Source: a bacterium
Lineage (GTDB): Bacteria > Armatimonadota > Zipacnadia > Zipacnadales > Zipacnadaceae
Direction: 5' to 3'
Assembly (NCBI GenBank): GCA_030603495.1
Contig: JAUVXR010000044.1
Location: forward strand, 1-13,348
Length of the DNA stretch: 13,348 nt
Shown here: piece by piece, positions 6,705-12,967 of the stretch
Layout: the number at the start of each line of letters is the position of its first letter
Position numbering within the stretch: position 1 is the stretch's first letter
The notes under the pieces: model-generated
The model's database searches: none
Seen by the model: the letters and a program-made list of their open reading frames with translations, nothing else
What the model was told of the DNA's origin: nothing
Program-made: the position numbers and the translations under genes

Positions 6705-6727
6705 TACCTTTGCAGAAGTGCTCTCCC

Positions 6728-6900
6728 CTTCCCAATAGATAAACGCCGATCACTGCATAATCAATAATAGTCAAAAGGCCTGTCCGTATGTTCTACACCG
6801 CCCAACGAATAGAAGGCACTATCACGTCTCTGGTAACTATTCACCTTATCCAGAATTGCCCATTTGAAATCGGATGGCCATCGCTCATTCGATAGCCTCT
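6728..6900 (-). pseudogene. Inverted, decayed partial copy of the symporter 5' region and first ~20 codons
   Basis: Read on the minus strand, this segment aligns along its whole length with 8174-8348 on the plus strand. It covers the upstream region, the ribosome site and the first 20 codons of the sodium:solute symporter. By hand I count about 21 mismatches and one 2-nt gap over about 171 positions. The equivalent of the start codon is ATA (6789-6787), and the GGGGAGG ribosome site is weakened to GGGCGG, so this copy should not be translated from that site. The translation of the remnant (IIDYAVIGVYLLG) still reads like an SSS-family N-terminus. It therefore came from a symporter gene, either this one or a close paralogue. 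Similarity stops at about 6728, with no downstream symporter sequence visible. Confidence 0.85.
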
Positions 6901-7031
6901 GGAGTTATGTGGAGGGTCGGCGGTCCGACATCAGCGAAAACCGGTACCGCCCCCAGTGCAACTATGGAGAGTGACGAGGCGATGTAGAAGCATGGGGTAA
7001 CGATCACCTCATCCCCCGGACCTATCCCCCG
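6888..7031 (-). pseudogene. Fragment of a DegT/DnrJ/EryC1-family sugar aminotransferase
   Basis: About 48 codons read GIGPGDEVIV, then a segment ending ALGAVPVFADVGPPTL and HITPEAIE. This is the conserved N-terminal stretch of PLP-dependent DegT/DnrJ/EryC1/StrS aminotransferases, which act on nucleotide-linked keto sugars. Intact members are about 370-400 residues; here only the segment around residues 50-100 of a typical member is present. Upstream of GIG the frame loses the family pattern (GGKRGC), and downstream it stops at a TGA within the inverted repeat boundary. The catalytic lysine region is absent, so it cannot be functional. Such enzymes are common in polysaccharide loci, so the fragment may be a relic of a longer sugar-modification cluster. 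Confidence 0.72.
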
Positions 7032-7050
7032 GCAACCACGTTTACCACCC

Positions 7051-7496
7051 ATGGGCAACTCAGTACACCCACAAGATATACAAGACAACAAGCACAACAA
7101 AGCCGAGTCGTTATCGTTGGCTTTAGATATGGCTCACGAATACGGCAACAGCAAGCGTGACGTGAAGGTCCTCACCACAAGCCTGGCGAAGTTCCGACTT
7201 ACGCCTCTGGAAAAGGTCCAGGCCGAAGTGGACGAGCACGTGGCGGGAGGTAGGACAGAGAACCCAGCGGCTTACGCTAACCGCTTGGCAGTGGTCTTTG
7301 CAGAGGCAGAACGCGAAGCACGTGCGGTCAAAAAACTAAACAGCGCCGCGAGACCTTCAACCTAATACTGAGCACGGCAGCCCATTAACAGCAGGCCCGC
7401 CAGTTAACAGATCGCTTGGAAGCCGGATTATTGGACTATTGGCCTGATGAAGAGAAATTGAATGAGGAAGCGATCAAGCTGGTGACTGCCCGCTAG
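7051..7496 (+). pseudogene. Unrecognised protein gene broken by a frameshift and an in-frame stop
   Basis: The first frame (ATG 7051, stop 7365) encodes 106 residues, mostly hydrophilic and helical, including AGGRTENPAAYANRLAVVFA. At a run of six A (about 7330-7335) the protein-like reading moves to another frame, giving KQRRETFNLILSTAAH. A TAA (about 7395-7397) interrupts it, after which the same frame continues QQARQLTDRLEAGLLDYW and ends KLNEEAIKLVTAR with a TAG at 7496. The pieces together look like one protein of about 145 residues that has been inactivated. Its true N-terminus is uncertain, because the region before about 7075 borders the aminotransferase fragment on the other strand. 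No family is recognised. The stop lies 15 nt before the receiver gene, so the two may once have been cotranscribed. Confidence 0.5.
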
Positions 7497-7511
7497 ACTG
7501 ACGGAGGCAAC

Positions 7512-7934
7512 ATGACCCAGTCACCCGGCCAGCGTGTTACTGTGTTTGTAATCGACGACGATGTACGCATGCTAGCCGTCTGTCGGCAGATACTAGAGCA
7601 TGCGGGCCACAACGTCCTGGTAGCTCAGCGAGGGGAAGATGCGATAGGCACATTCCACGAGCATCACCCTACTATTGACGTGGCTGTGGTAGACTGGAAG
7701 CTCCCTGATCTGAGCGGAGATGAAATAATAGAGCAGATGCTGGAAATTGACCCGGAGGCCAGAATAGTATTCTTCACTGGCTACGCTGTCGATGAAGAGA
7801 CGCGCCGGCGGGTCGAGCCCAAGACCAAGACCTTGCTGAGAAAGCCCTTTGATGGTCAGCAACTGCTTGATGCTATCCAGGCGGCCATGGGATCGGACAA
7901 TCACGACAGTGGCAGCCGAACCAGCAAGGGCTGA
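7512..7934 (+). CDS. Stand-alone CheY-like response regulator receiver protein
   Basis: This 140-residue protein consists almost entirely of one receiver domain (about 9-131). The phosphorylation set is complete: acidic pair D16/D17 in VIDDDV, phospho-acceptor D61 in VVDWKLPDLSG, switch threonine T89 in FFTGY, and lysine K111 in LLRKPF. No DNA-binding or enzymatic output domain follows, so it would signal by protein contact with a kinase, phosphotransfer protein or other partner. The short tail (SDNHDSGSRTSKG) is polar. GGAGG lies 4 nt before the ATG at 7512. No histidine kinase is visible nearby. The flanking sequence is debris on both sides, so its partner cannot be inferred from position. 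Confidence 0.93.
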   Translation: MTQSPGQRVTVFVIDDDVRMLAVCRQILEHAGHNVLVAQRGEDAIGTFHEHHPTIDVAVVDWKLPDLSGDEIIEQMLEIDPEARIVFFTGYAVDEETRRRVEPKTKTLLRKPFDGQQLLDAIQAAMGSDNHDSGSRTSKG

Positions 7935-8173
7935 TCGAGAAGGCGATTGAGGTAGTGTCCACCTGATGGCTGGCCAACCCGACAGCCTCAACAGTAACAA
8001 CCGTCTATTCTGCACTGGCAGAAAGGTACTGTCGCGTCTGTAACGTGTCCTGTGCGGTAGCCCGAACACGTGCAGAACCTTCACTTCGGGGCAATCTGAG
8101 ACGTTTTCAATGCTTGCCGTACAGAACAAGAAGGAAATCGAGATCCTGCTGTCGAATAGCTAAGGCAGCGGTG
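7935..8173 (+). other. Non-coding spacer with a possible transposase/integrase fragment
   Basis: I see no intact gene here. One short frame ending at 8163 reads FSMLAVQNKKEIEILLSNS. The part KKEIEILL resembles the start of many integrase-type transposases (typically KEIEILLLRHQ), but the match is too short to call. A 62-codon frame (8045-8233) crosses into the inverted repeat and shows no family features. Confidence 0.3.
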
Positions 8174-8348
8174 AGAGACTATCGAATGAGCGATGGCTAT
8201 CCAATTTCAAATGGGCAATTCCGGACAAGGTGAGTAGTCACCAGAAATGTGATAGTGCCTTCTATTCTTGTGGGGAGGTGTAGAACATGCAGACAGGCCT
8301 TTTGGCTGGTGTTGATTATGCAGTAATCGTTGTCTATCTATTGGGAAT
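8174..8348 (+). repeat. Right arm of the imperfect inverted repeat (symporter upstream region and first codons)
   Basis: This is the intact-looking partner of the copy at 6728-6900. It contains a small hairpin GGTGA-GTAG-TCACC (8229-8242), the GGGGAGG ribosome site (8272-8278) 8 nt before the symporter ATG, and the first 20 codons. A 15-codon frame MSDGYPISNGQFRTR (8188-8235 region) is present in both arms at the same position. The two arms lie about 1.27 kb apart and enclose the aminotransferase fragment, the broken gene and the receiver. Confidence 0.85.
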
Positions 8349-10098
8349 GGTTGGACTCGGATTCTGGATGTCCAAGCGTCAGAAAACCTCGAAGGACTAC
8401 TTCCTGGCGGGACGCAGGATGGGCTGGCTTGTCTTGGGGCCGTCGATATTGATATCACTGACCAGCGGTATTTCGATGCTAGGCGGCCCCGGGTACTCAT
8501 ACAGCCACGATCTGCAGTTTCCCCCTGCAGGTGCGATGCTGATTGTTCCAATTACCTTGGTGGTCGTCTACGTTATTGTGCCGATACTTTATCCCCTGTC
8601 ACTTACCACCGCCTACACGTACTTGGAGTACCGTTTTGGCTTAAGCGTACGGCTCCTGGGTAGTGGCCTATTCATCCTGCAGCGCGGCGGCTGGTTGGCA
8701 ACAGCCATCTTTGCTCCCTCGGTAGCGCTGGCCGCGGTGATTAATGTACCCGGGTTAACTGAGCCGCAGGAGGCAATGCTGGCGGTGGTGGTAATAGGTA
8801 CCGTGGCTACACTATATACTACGATGGGAGGGATCGAGGCGGATATCTGGAGTGATGTCATACAGTTCTATGTGTTTGCCGGAGCACTGGTACTTATATG
8901 GTTCTACCTGCTACGTGACGTGGGCGGGTGGAACGAAGTGTGGCGTATCAGCAGCGAAGCTGGGCGTACTTTTCCGTTGCGCACTGTTAACGAATTCAAG
9001 AGTTGGATCTTCAATCCCAACCTGAGCCCCACGGTTGAGTTGACGTTTTGGTGGATTCTCATAAGTACATCACTGGGTATGCTTAAGGACGCCGGTACTG
9101 ACCAGATTACACTGCAGCGGTACTTCAGCGGTCGCAATATCACACAGACCATCCGCTCCATTTGGCTGGGATGGGTTGGCTTTATGCCAGTGTGTTTCCT
9201 GTTGCCACTCACCGGCGTCGGACTGTTTGCTTATTTCCATCTATACGGTGGCCAGCATCCTGCCATCCCGTCCAACCCTGATCAGGTGTTGCCCTACTTT
9301 GTGGCGGCTATCCTGCCGGTGGGAATCTCCGGGCTATTCATTGCTGCTCTGTTCGCCGCCACAATGTCCAGCGTTGACTCAGGCGTTAATTCTTTAAGCG
9401 CCAGCTGCATTACCGACTTCTATCGGCGACTGCGGGGAACAGAAGGCACGAAGAGTAGCCGCAAAGCTTTTGACAAATTCATTGCAGCGGTTCTGGCGGT
9501 GGTGATTGTGGGAACAGTAGTGGCGATAGTGCTGAACATACCGCCCCTTAGTCGGGTGGTGAGCCAAGGCGGCGCGGCCTCCGGTGTGGCTATCGCAACC
9601 GTTCTTATCATAGCATTAATAGTAGCCTTACGTGCCTACGCTGGCCTGACCCTGCCGCTGATACGAAGAACTTTCGCCCGGATCGCTCCCGAGCATGGCG
9701 ATGAAGCCCACTACTTACGAATTTCGCGCTACGGCACTGTTGCCTGGGGCGTGGTGGCGACGGTTGCTGCGCTATACTGTGGAAGATTAGGTCAAATCTA
9801 TCAAATTGGTGTGATACTGATGGGCTTTTGGGGCGGGCCGCTGTTGGGCATTTTCTTCCTCGGTTTCCTCACGCGCCGCGCGAATGCAACGGGTGCAATT
9901 GTCGGAGCAATTGTCGGACTCATTGTCACCGTCATTTGGTGGCGACTAGGTTTCACGGTGTTTCTGTATAGTTTTGTGGGCTTAGTTCCAACCCTGGTTG
10001 TTGGTTACCTGGTTAGCCTGGCCACAGCCCGCCCGACGGCTGAGCAGATTGAGGGCATGACCACATATACTCGCTTCCCCATTGAGGAGCAAGACTAA
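8287..10098 (+). CDS. Sodium:solute symporter (SSS family) transporter
   Basis: This 603-residue inner-membrane protein should couple sodium entry to uptake of an organic solute. The family transports sugars, amino acids, carboxylates, proline and pantothenate; the substrate is not evident here. The N-terminus (DYAVIVVYLLGMVGLGFW, then DYFLAGRRMGWL) is the classic SSS opening. About 13 hydrophobic segments follow. The conserved loop and helix MSSVDSGVNSLSASCITDFY starts at about residue 360, matching the family's DS-N--S pattern before the D-Y motif. Length is normal (about 500-600). The ATG at 8287 has GGGGAGG 8 nt upstream. It is intact, unlike its neighbours. A transposase remnant follows immediately after the stop, and the decayed polysaccharide-degradation genes lie beyond it. 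A sugar or carboxylate substrate is plausible from that context but unproven. Confidence 0.95.
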   Translation: MQTGLLAGVDYAVIVVYLLGMVGLGFWMSKRQKTSKDYFLAGRRMGWLVLGPSILISLTSGISMLGGPGYSYSHDLQFPPAGAMLIVPITLVVVYVIVPILYPLSLTTAYTYLEYRFGLSVRLLGSGLFILQRGGWLATAIFAPSVALAAVINVPGLTEPQEAMLAVVVIGTVATLYTTMGGIEADIWSDVIQFYVFAGALVLIWFYLLRDVGGWNEVWRISSEAGRTFPLRTVNEFKSWIFNPNLSPTVELTFWWILISTSLGMLKDAGTDQITLQRYFSGRNITQTIRSIWLGWVGFMPVCFLLPLTGVGLFAYFHLYGGQHPAIPSNPDQVLPYFVAAILPVGISGLFIAALFAATMSSVDSGVNSLSASCITDFYRRLRGTEGTKSSRKAFDKFIAAVLAVVIVGTVVAIVLNIPPLSRVVSQGGAASGVAIATVLIIALIVALRAYAGLTLPLIRRTFARIAPEHGDEAHYLRISRYGTVAWGVVATVAALYCGRLGQIYQIGVILMGFWGGPLLGIFFLGFLTRRANATGAIVGAIVGLIVTVIWWRLGFTVFLYSFVGLVPTLVVGYLVSLATARPTAEQIEGMTTYTRFPIEEQD

Positions 10099-10609: not shown

Positions 10610-11076
10610 CTAGTACACCAGTGCCTCACTCGCTGCTCCAATGAATTCTACATAGTTGTGCACATACTGTGGTGGCAGCGGGTACATGCGGGGAGACGTG
10701 GTGTTCATCATTATCTGCCCGCTGCGTCCTGCGACCATCTCCCGAATCGCCTCAACCTTCGTCCGCATCTCTCCAGGTTTCGCCGTATACAGGTCCCGAT
10801 CCTGGACATAGCCCGTCAGGCAAATCCGCCCGTCTACGTACTCGAGCGCCTCGTCCAGGGCAATGTCGCCTTGGGGTGGTGGCTCCATCGGCTCGAGCAT
10901 GTCAAAGCCGACCTCCAGGAAATCATCGAGCGCCACCCTGACTCTGCCGTGGGAGTGGAGCGCAACCAGGTGACCAGTCTCGTGCACCATACCCACAAGA
11001 TGCTCGTGGTAAGGCGTCACCAGTTCGCGGAAGATATGTGGTGGTAACATCGCCGGCGTTGCCAGCTCCGCACCGC
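10610..11076 (-). pseudogene. 3' part of a uroporphyrinogen decarboxylase-like (URO-D) protein gene
   Basis: About 155 codons read GAELATPAMLPPHIFREL, then HEHLVGMVHETGHLVALHSH, DMLEPMEPPPQGD, and CLTGYVQDRDLYTAKPGEMR, ending at a TAG (10610). This is the C-terminal half of URO-D-superfamily proteins of the non-haem type often found beside glycosidases and methyltransferases in environmental bacteria. The N-terminal half is missing. Immediately upstream the sequence switches to the frame of a different gene (glycosidase-like) without a stop, start codon or ribosome site. It is therefore a truncated relic joined to that gene by a deletion or rearrangement. The last codon lies just after the transposase remnant on the other strand. 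Confidence 0.82.
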
Positions 11077-12967
11077 CCAGCGCATCTGCTCCGGTACGAA
11101 TAGTCCAACGTCGCCTGGGCTCATCCACGGAATAACCCGGCCCTTGGGGCCCATGTGCAGCTTCGCCCGGCGCACCTCGTCGCCCATGTATTCGATATAG
11201 ACTGGATACAGCGGGGTGTAGGTGGACGGCTCCGAGTTAATGCCGTAGACCTCATTGATCCAGGAGACATCCCAGATATCGTGATACCACGTGCCTGCCA
11301 CGAAGTCATATACTCCCAACTCGGGCATCTTTACCCCGGCTGCACTGCAGCCCTGCGCGATGGCATGGTAGTACTCGCCGAAAAGCTCGACATGTACCGT
11401 TGTCAAGCATGGTTTACAAATTGGCTTAGGTGCCAAGCTTGTAGGTGTTGGGTAGGAGTCCACCAGAAAGTCGATCTCACTTTGCATATGCTCGCCGCGG
11501 TAGGTCGGGCAGCCGGCGTTGGACCCTGGTGCGTATTCGCCCGGCCCGAGTGCGCAGTGTGTCTCTTCTTTCGAGCGATACCAATACATGGTCATGTAGT
11601 AGCCGACAATCTTGTATCCGCGCTGACGTGCCTGCGCCACAAATTCGAAGGCCTGCTTGTAGTCGCGGGGGTATTTAGTGGCAGACACATGGGACATGGA
11701 GCAGGACACCGCCGTAAGGCCCATGCGATCACACATATCCAGGAACCCGGGCCAGCGTCCGCTAAGCTGCGTCCAGTTCCTCCATGGCCCGATCTGTGTG
11801 AGCAGCCTTTCAGAACGGGGCACCGGCCCGATGCTGACGGCCTCCAGCGGGACGGTGGCGGTATAACCCGACCTATCCTGCACCTCCAGGCCATAGCGCA
11901 GTTCCCCCCTCGTCCCTGCTGGCCAGTCCGTGGTCATCTGGAAATTGGCGAAAAACCCGCTAACGTCCCACGCACTATAATAACTCATAAGAAACGCTGA
12001 ATCGCGCGAGATGGAGGTTGTCAGGATGTAGCGGGTACCACCATCTTTGAGACGAATCCGCTCGGCGCCCGCCAGTTGTGCCGACAGATCACCGCCGTAG
12101 ATTCCGCTCTCGGGGCATCAACGACCGTGACGCCCGCCGGGACATCCACGAAAAATCGAATCTCGGTCGGTTCCGGCGAACTAACCACAATACCAAATCG
12201 GCACGGGCTGGCAAAATCGCGGCACACGTGGATAGTATCGCGCAGCGAGTAAACATACGGCATGGTGAAGGTGAACAGCCGTTGATCTTCAGCAGAAAAC
12301 TCAACTTGCTCTGGGGCATGGTCGCCGGCAAATACCTGCAATTCGTCACTGGAAATGTGAGGGCCACGCATACGCAGCCCAACATATCGCCCCCGCGTCT
12401 TCAGATCGCGGAAGCGCAGGTTGTAGACCTACGGTGTACCTCTCTCTCTTCGAGCACGCCGAATTGCTCCCTGTCTCCCATCCGCCAGAAGTCAAAGTCG
12501 TCCGCCAGGTAGAAAGTCTCTCCATCGTCGCTGACTAGGACCTCGATGTGGTCCGGAAAGACGTCCGGACGGTGTGCCAGCCCACCCTGCAAGCGGATCG
12601 CCACCTCCTCAATCGGTTGAATCTCGCCCAAGTCGAGCTTGATCTGGGCGATGTGTGTACCATGCCAGCAAACAGCCTTGGGATCACTCCAGATGATTAA
12701 TTGATCCGACACGATCCCGTCGGTGAGGTCGGTCCCGTCTGTCCCCTCCTCCTTAGTCCGGCCAAAATTGGGCACCGGCAGCATCTTGTATGGTTTGTGC
12801 AATGCCAGGTTGACGCGCTGTTCCTAGCCCTGCGCACCGACTACCTCCGCGATCTGCTCTCCTTCCTGTGTGCAAATAGCCTCGTGGTGAACAGCTACTA
12901 GCAGCCCTCCGATTACCAGAAAGGCTGTCAACATCGCCCACAGCCGAACAACACGCTTAGCTTTCAT
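11077..12967 (-). pseudogene. Secreted F5/8C-domain, glycosidase-like protein gene, 3' truncated, with an amber stop and two frameshifts
   Basis: The gene starts at an ATG (12967) with AGGAGGAGG 8 nt upstream and encodes a signal peptide (MKAKRVVRLWAMLTAFLVIG then GLLVAV). A TAG at codon 48 (12824-12826) interrupts it. The same frame continues EQRVNLALHKPYKM into a discoidin/F5-8C-like carbohydrate-binding region (DLTDGI, IKLDLGEI, PDHIEVLVSDDGETFYL). Near 12420-12445, by a CT repeat, the reading moves to a second frame (YNLRFRDLKTRGRYVGLRM). At a four-base C/G run (12112-12115) it moves to a third (ESGIYGGDLSAQLAGAERI). That frame runs through a beta-rich section into a large domain with barrel-like segments (GYYMTMYWYRSKEE, VELFGEYYHAIAQG, RVIPWMSPGDVGLF). 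At about 11066-11080 the pattern ends and URO-D sequence begins. The enzyme family of the large domain is not recognised with certainty. Confidence 0.75.

Follow-up and report, generated by a model that had tools for sequence, protein, structure and literature searches.

The two inverted arms found at 6726-6900 (minus) and 8174-8350 (plus) are best explained by an insertion sequence-associated duplication of the start of a symporter gene, followed by decay, with scars of two insertion sequences. We give this reading a probability of roughly three in four. The homology of the arms, the additional copies elsewhere in the genome, the assignment of the proximal parts to IS1380 and IS66, the truncation of a DegT gene and the decay of codons are observed directly, and each is described below. 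The window, i.e. the whole stretch that was analysed, is the entire 13,348-bp contig C8 of a 2.67-Mb assembly with 62 contigs. Genomes of Zipacnadia have been described from Guaymas Basin sediments (PMC10290634).

Comparison of the two arms

To compare the arms, the reverse-complemented left region was aligned with the right one using blastn. Only one match is obtained, 6726-6900 (minus) against 8174-8350 (plus), with 86.4% identity over 177 columns and an E-value of 6.8e-57. In the ungapped columns 153 out of 175 positions (87.4%) are identical, and the differences consist of 17 transitions, 5 transversions and a single 2-base gap. The longest exact match is 19 bp. In a repeat search of the window the arms are recovered as the inverted pairs I1 and I2, spaced by 1,273 bp, and these rank far above all other inverted pairs. 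The initial annotation had proposed two inverted similar segments, 6728-6900 (minus) and 8174-8348 (plus), about 88% identical by hand count and about 1.27 kb apart, i.e. the coordinates were nearly exact and the alignment bears the similarity out.

Downstream of the right arm lies an intact sodium:solute symporter of 603 amino acids (8287-10098, plus; PF00474, E-value 5.8e-38). It obtains 131 bits for PF00474, against a cut-off of 22.8, and 198.9 for TIGR00813, where the cut-off is 184. The distal part of the right arm, 8242-8350, is formed by the symporter leader and the first 21 codons. The left arm contains the same leader followed by 21 decayed codons. It reads ATA CGG where the right arm reads ATG CAG, and the ribosome-site region is TTGGGCGG on the left and TGGGGAGG on the right, i.e. 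the string GGGGAGG is gone from the left arm. The start codon has been lost, as the initial annotation had noticed, the ribosome site is altered, and the copy in the left arm is dead.

The arms had been described as the upstream region of the symporter plus its first codons. The codons, 21 in number, are there, but the arms are composite, and their first 68 bp are insertion sequence ends and not just promoter. Read from 8174 onwards, the right arm consists of the right tip of an IS1380-family element (8174-8222), an IS66-type terminal repeat (8226-8241), the leader and the symporter codons, and the left arm has the same composition.

Between the arms there is an intact stand-alone receiver-domain gene (7512-7934, plus; PF00072, 2.1e-20). 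Inverted repeats around a gene are also seen in invertible promoter or gene segments, and it had been suggested that recombination between the arms could invert the segment with the receiver gene. Such a switch would flip 1.27 kb and change the side that is driven. However, the arms are only 86% identical, the left arm is truncated and has lost its start codon, and promoter-like sites are not more frequent than expected from shuffled sequences. Unlike in known invertible segments, the repeats are imperfect, one side is dead and no recombinase was found. Since no site-specific recombinase is among the family matches of the scanned open reading frames of the window, and since the longest exact match between the arms is 19 bp, we consider a switch extremely unlikely. 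The receiver gene is a bystander without visible relation to the arms.

Two other reading frames of the window were noted. At 7051-7365 (plus) there is an open frame of 104 amino acids, its start facing the DegT fragment on the other strand, that has no match in Pfam, NCBIfam or PHROGs. At 10610-11128 (minus) a C-terminal URO-D-like fragment covers profile positions 195-321 out of 346, apparently from a truncated gene.

The IS1380-family scar

The region 7958-8222 (plus), which includes the proximal part of the right arm, was compared with an IS1380 element, at its 3' end, of G010, a genome of the same family and another genus. The Smith-Waterman score is 125, while shuffled sequences reach a mean of 23 and a maximum of 38. 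When the shared core is left out the score is still 82, with a shuffle maximum of 35. The alignment runs end to end, from the stop codon of the transposase to the right terminal repeat, and the G010 homologue covers the right arm together with 216 bp upstream of it. In G010 this 3' end follows a transposase fragment matching both PF13701 and the NCBIfam IS1380 model (NF033539), and the element has a left repeat, GCATTGCCCGTATG, to be compared with the right repeat GCATTGCCCATTTG.

The right tip AAATGGGNAATCCC is also found behind the transposase in other IS1380 fragments of the family, for instance near C1:63736 and on C51 of the same genome. In the window the right tip, CAAATGGGCAATTCC, ends at about 8222 and is common to other IS1380 right ends; no left end is present in the window. 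At the DNA level G010 is the one relative of 7958-8222, which counts against the duplication and decay reading; with the 3' ends of other IS1380 elements this region has just the tip motif in common.

From this alignment we interpret 7958-8222 as the 3' non-coding terminal region of an IS1380-family element, i.e. a terminal scar only. The homologous element still has part of its transposase and a terminal repeat at either end, but the right copy keeps just the last 265 bp and the left arm and the C1 copy (see below) the last 49 bp, without transposase or left end. No IS1380 transposase was identified among the scanned open reading frames of the window. In the whole genome PF13701 (IS1380-type) has ten matches, all of them partial and the largest covering about half of the model, so this genome is rich in insertion sequence debris.

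At C1:62580-63530 (locus L009, 2581-3531) a URO-D-like N-terminal stretch apparently continues in frame into an IS1380 transposase, of which the C-terminal half is present; the family match covers the transposase part only and URO-D was assigned by eye. Such a fusion would likewise point to deletion joints in the genome.

The IS66 terminal repeat

Adjoining the IS1380 tip is a 16-bp sequence, CAAGGTGAGTAGTCAC (8226-8241, plus), that differs in one base from CAAGGTGAGTAGTTAC, the consensus of the terminal inverted repeat at the right end of an element of the IS66 family. The left-arm version, TAAGGTGAATAGTTAC (6833-6848, minus), has two mismatches, i.e. the match is 15/16 in the right arm and 14/16 in the left arm. 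The mismatches are at different positions, hence the common ancestor of the arms probably had the full consensus.

The motif was searched as CAAGGTGAGTAGTYACC, allowing at most one mismatch, in 291 genomes of the phylum. It is present in 21 of them, with up to 50 copies in a single genome where the reversed control gives 0, and within the order it is dispersed with a control near zero. When 84,980 species genomes were searched for a taxon-specific motif from the order, the single match lay in a genome of Candidatus Zipacnadia (Armatimonadota), which is therefore the probable class of the genome analysed here. The copies of the repeat end sharply before variable flanks and are often located near contig ends. 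At a locus of a sister species (L076) two repeat ends are found in inverted orientation around a short filler, and in genome G009 (L068) a DDE_Tnp_IS66 reading frame (1.7e-13) runs into the terminal repeat.

A taxon-wide regulatory operator, CAAGGTGAGTAGTTAC, located upstream of several genes was also considered. It was rejected in view of the sharp ends, the variable flanks, the frequent position near contig ends, the inverted pairs and the IS66 frame. The nearest parallel to this part is given by IS66-family insertion sequences and their small non-autonomous derivatives (PF03050). The 16-bp terminal repeat CAAGGTGAGTAGTYAC also occurs in a family of the order in which it is reached by an IS66 transposase frame, but the window has only the 16-bp stub next to the IS1380 tip, and no IS66 transposase gene was found among the scanned open reading frames.

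Neither the IS1380 nor the IS66 element is intact at this locus, and neither left ends nor target-site duplications could be recognised, which also counts against the duplication and decay reading. Elements of the IS1380 family make a short target-site duplication of 4 bp; here their left end is missing, and no empty site was found. In a contig of another genome (G016:C59; L019 1500-1541) the similarity to the window runs for about 20 bp beyond the IS66 repeat (CAGAAA..GTGCC), which may be due to chance or to a target preference. A viral or phage origin was rejected, as neither motif has an exact match in viral contigs.

Other copies in the genome

A DNA search of the same genome places the proximal part at four sites, three of them with symporter sequence: the right arm, the left arm, C1:66287-66533 (plus) and C7:566-613 (minus). 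According to blastn the C1 copy extends to C1:66287-66854, 567 bp at 96% identity. It contains symporter codons 1-152, with 91% identity at the protein level, and is then cut. The C7 copy consists of the first 48 bp of the unit standing alone, at 92% identity. The initial annotation had called for a search for further copies, and this one yields an isolated IS1380 right tip and a third, partial, transporter copy. Three origins were offered there (inverted duplication, recombination between paralogues, a family of repeats in front of genes), and two of them hold in part: the proximal segment 8174-8241 is a dispersed repeat and the distal segment 8242-8350 is a transporter duplication.

The three copies with symporter sequence can all be regarded as paralogues of one family (PF00474, TIGR00813). 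The right copy is the intact member, and the left arm and the C1 copy are 5' fragments of recent paralogues; these are limited to 21 and 152 codons, respectively, and both look dead. Nonsynonymous and synonymous codon changes relative to the right copy are 13:6 for C1 and 7:2 for the left arm, as expected if the extra symporter copies are unconstrained. The right-hand symporter is the only intact product of the duplicated unit. Symporter remnants were also sought between 6180 and 6726, using frames with stops as X, and no family match was obtained. The shared core is confined to this genome and the weak relative in G010, and a search by symporter protein in the contigs of other genomes gave no confirmed relatives.

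At its end the C1 copy runs into 132 bp (C1:66849-66980) that are 100% identical to C55:23222-23353, the dnaJ-prmA spacer, and that lie at the end of the C1 contig. The 132 bp were either duplicated recently or belong to a chimeric end of the contig, and a mis-assembly may be involved, which again counts against the duplication and decay reading. Artefacts in assembling or binning the metagenome, such as a strain mixture or a chimeric contig, would account for part of the arrangement, and both this contig end and the shortness of the window contig (13.3 kb) fit with it. However, both arms are in one contig, and on the right the gene is intact. The arms are also 14% different, including a 2-base gap, and are therefore not one sequence assembled twice. 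Overall, we regard an artefact as quite improbable.

The shared breakpoint

The left edge of all four copies falls at window position 8172-8174, exactly at 8174 for the left arm and C1 and at 8172 for C7, while the right ends differ among all copies. In the left arm the edge lies within a fragment of a DegT/DnrJ/EryC1 aminotransferase (6885-7100, minus; PF01041, 3.6e-12), whose 3' side is cut by the arm and whose codons PEAIE coincide with bases 1-13 of the arm. When the fragment is compared with solved DegT proteins the alignments reach its last residues, ITPEAIE, i.e. these 13 bp (AGAGGCTATCGAA) belong to the DegT codons as well. At that place AGAGACTATCGAA is found in the right copy, and 12 of the 13 bases are common to both. 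The simplest reading of these sequences is that the left arm and the DegT gene are joined by a microhomology-type deletion joint.

In the C1 copy this border is also where an enolase-like frame (PF13378) stops. Only distant homologues were found when its natural end was sought, so microhomology at C1 is unproven. Upstream of the C7 tip, the end of a Kelch gene (L010, about 640-660, minus) shares the 13-mer GCTTGCCGTACAG with the IS1380 scar (8112-8124), perhaps as another microhomology joint.

An alternative is that the unit starting at 8174 is a mobile or recombinogenic cassette, where the hairpin CCATCG-AATGAG-CGATGG would act as a recombination or transposition end that carried the symporter 5' part to the DegT gene, the enolase-like gene and elsewhere. 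The left arm, the C1 copy and the C7 copy all start at 8172-8174 with different left neighbours, and nothing in the flanks of the first two resembles the upstream IS1380 region, which speaks for a cassette. However, G010 and the right copy continue through 8174 into IS1380 sequence, i.e. the position is internal to the IS1380 element. Further, each copy has a different right end, the junction of the left arm coincides with DegT codons, no recombinase is encoded among the family matches of the scanned window frames, and outside this genome the core has just the weak relative in G010. We therefore find a cassette unlikely.

The duplication and decay reading has to account for the same edge. Independent random deletions are not expected to choose one and the same base, 8174, and this counts against the decay explanation, by which the edge is not fully explained. 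The hairpin just inside 8174 may be a deletion hotspot. It is very doubtful that 8174, located before the hairpin in the right end of IS1380, actively serves as a breakpoint or alternative terminus by which captured host genes are scattered into other genes. For the hairpins an RNA family was also considered and rejected, as there is no Rfam match and the folding z-scores of the four copies (-0.55, -0.54, -2.7 and 0.8) give no consistent signal.

Proposed history of the locus

For the insertion sequence-associated duplication and decay we infer the order of events, the insertion of one element into the other and the deletion mechanism as follows. The first event would have been the insertion of an IS66-family element in front of the ancestral symporter gene, and the end of this element would now be seen at about 8241. 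Next, an IS1380-family element would have come to lie against or inside this end, with its right tip at about 8222, and both elements would have decayed to scars. Later, the unit of IS1380 tip, IS66 tip, leader and symporter 5' part would have been copied at least two times. One copy, inverted nearby, would be the left arm, which is 14% diverged and would be either older or faster decaying, and another, 4% diverged, would have gone to the C1 locus. Both extra copies would have lost the upstream IS1380 body and the downstream rest of the symporter by illegitimate deletions, with the left arm joined to the DegT gene through short microhomology.

Read like this, an eye-catching inverted repeat would be the sum of known processes: two insertion sequence scars, a duplication of a gene start and a microhomology-type deletion. 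An apparently conserved promoter can also consist of insertion sequence ends, which calls for caution when motifs are searched in small decaying genomes. Only the breakpoint common to the copies merits further attention. If it were active, IS1380-type elements would capture and scatter neighbouring host genes, here the 5' part of a symporter, and this uncultured class of Armatimonadota could serve to compare whether insertion sequence tips act as breakpoints.
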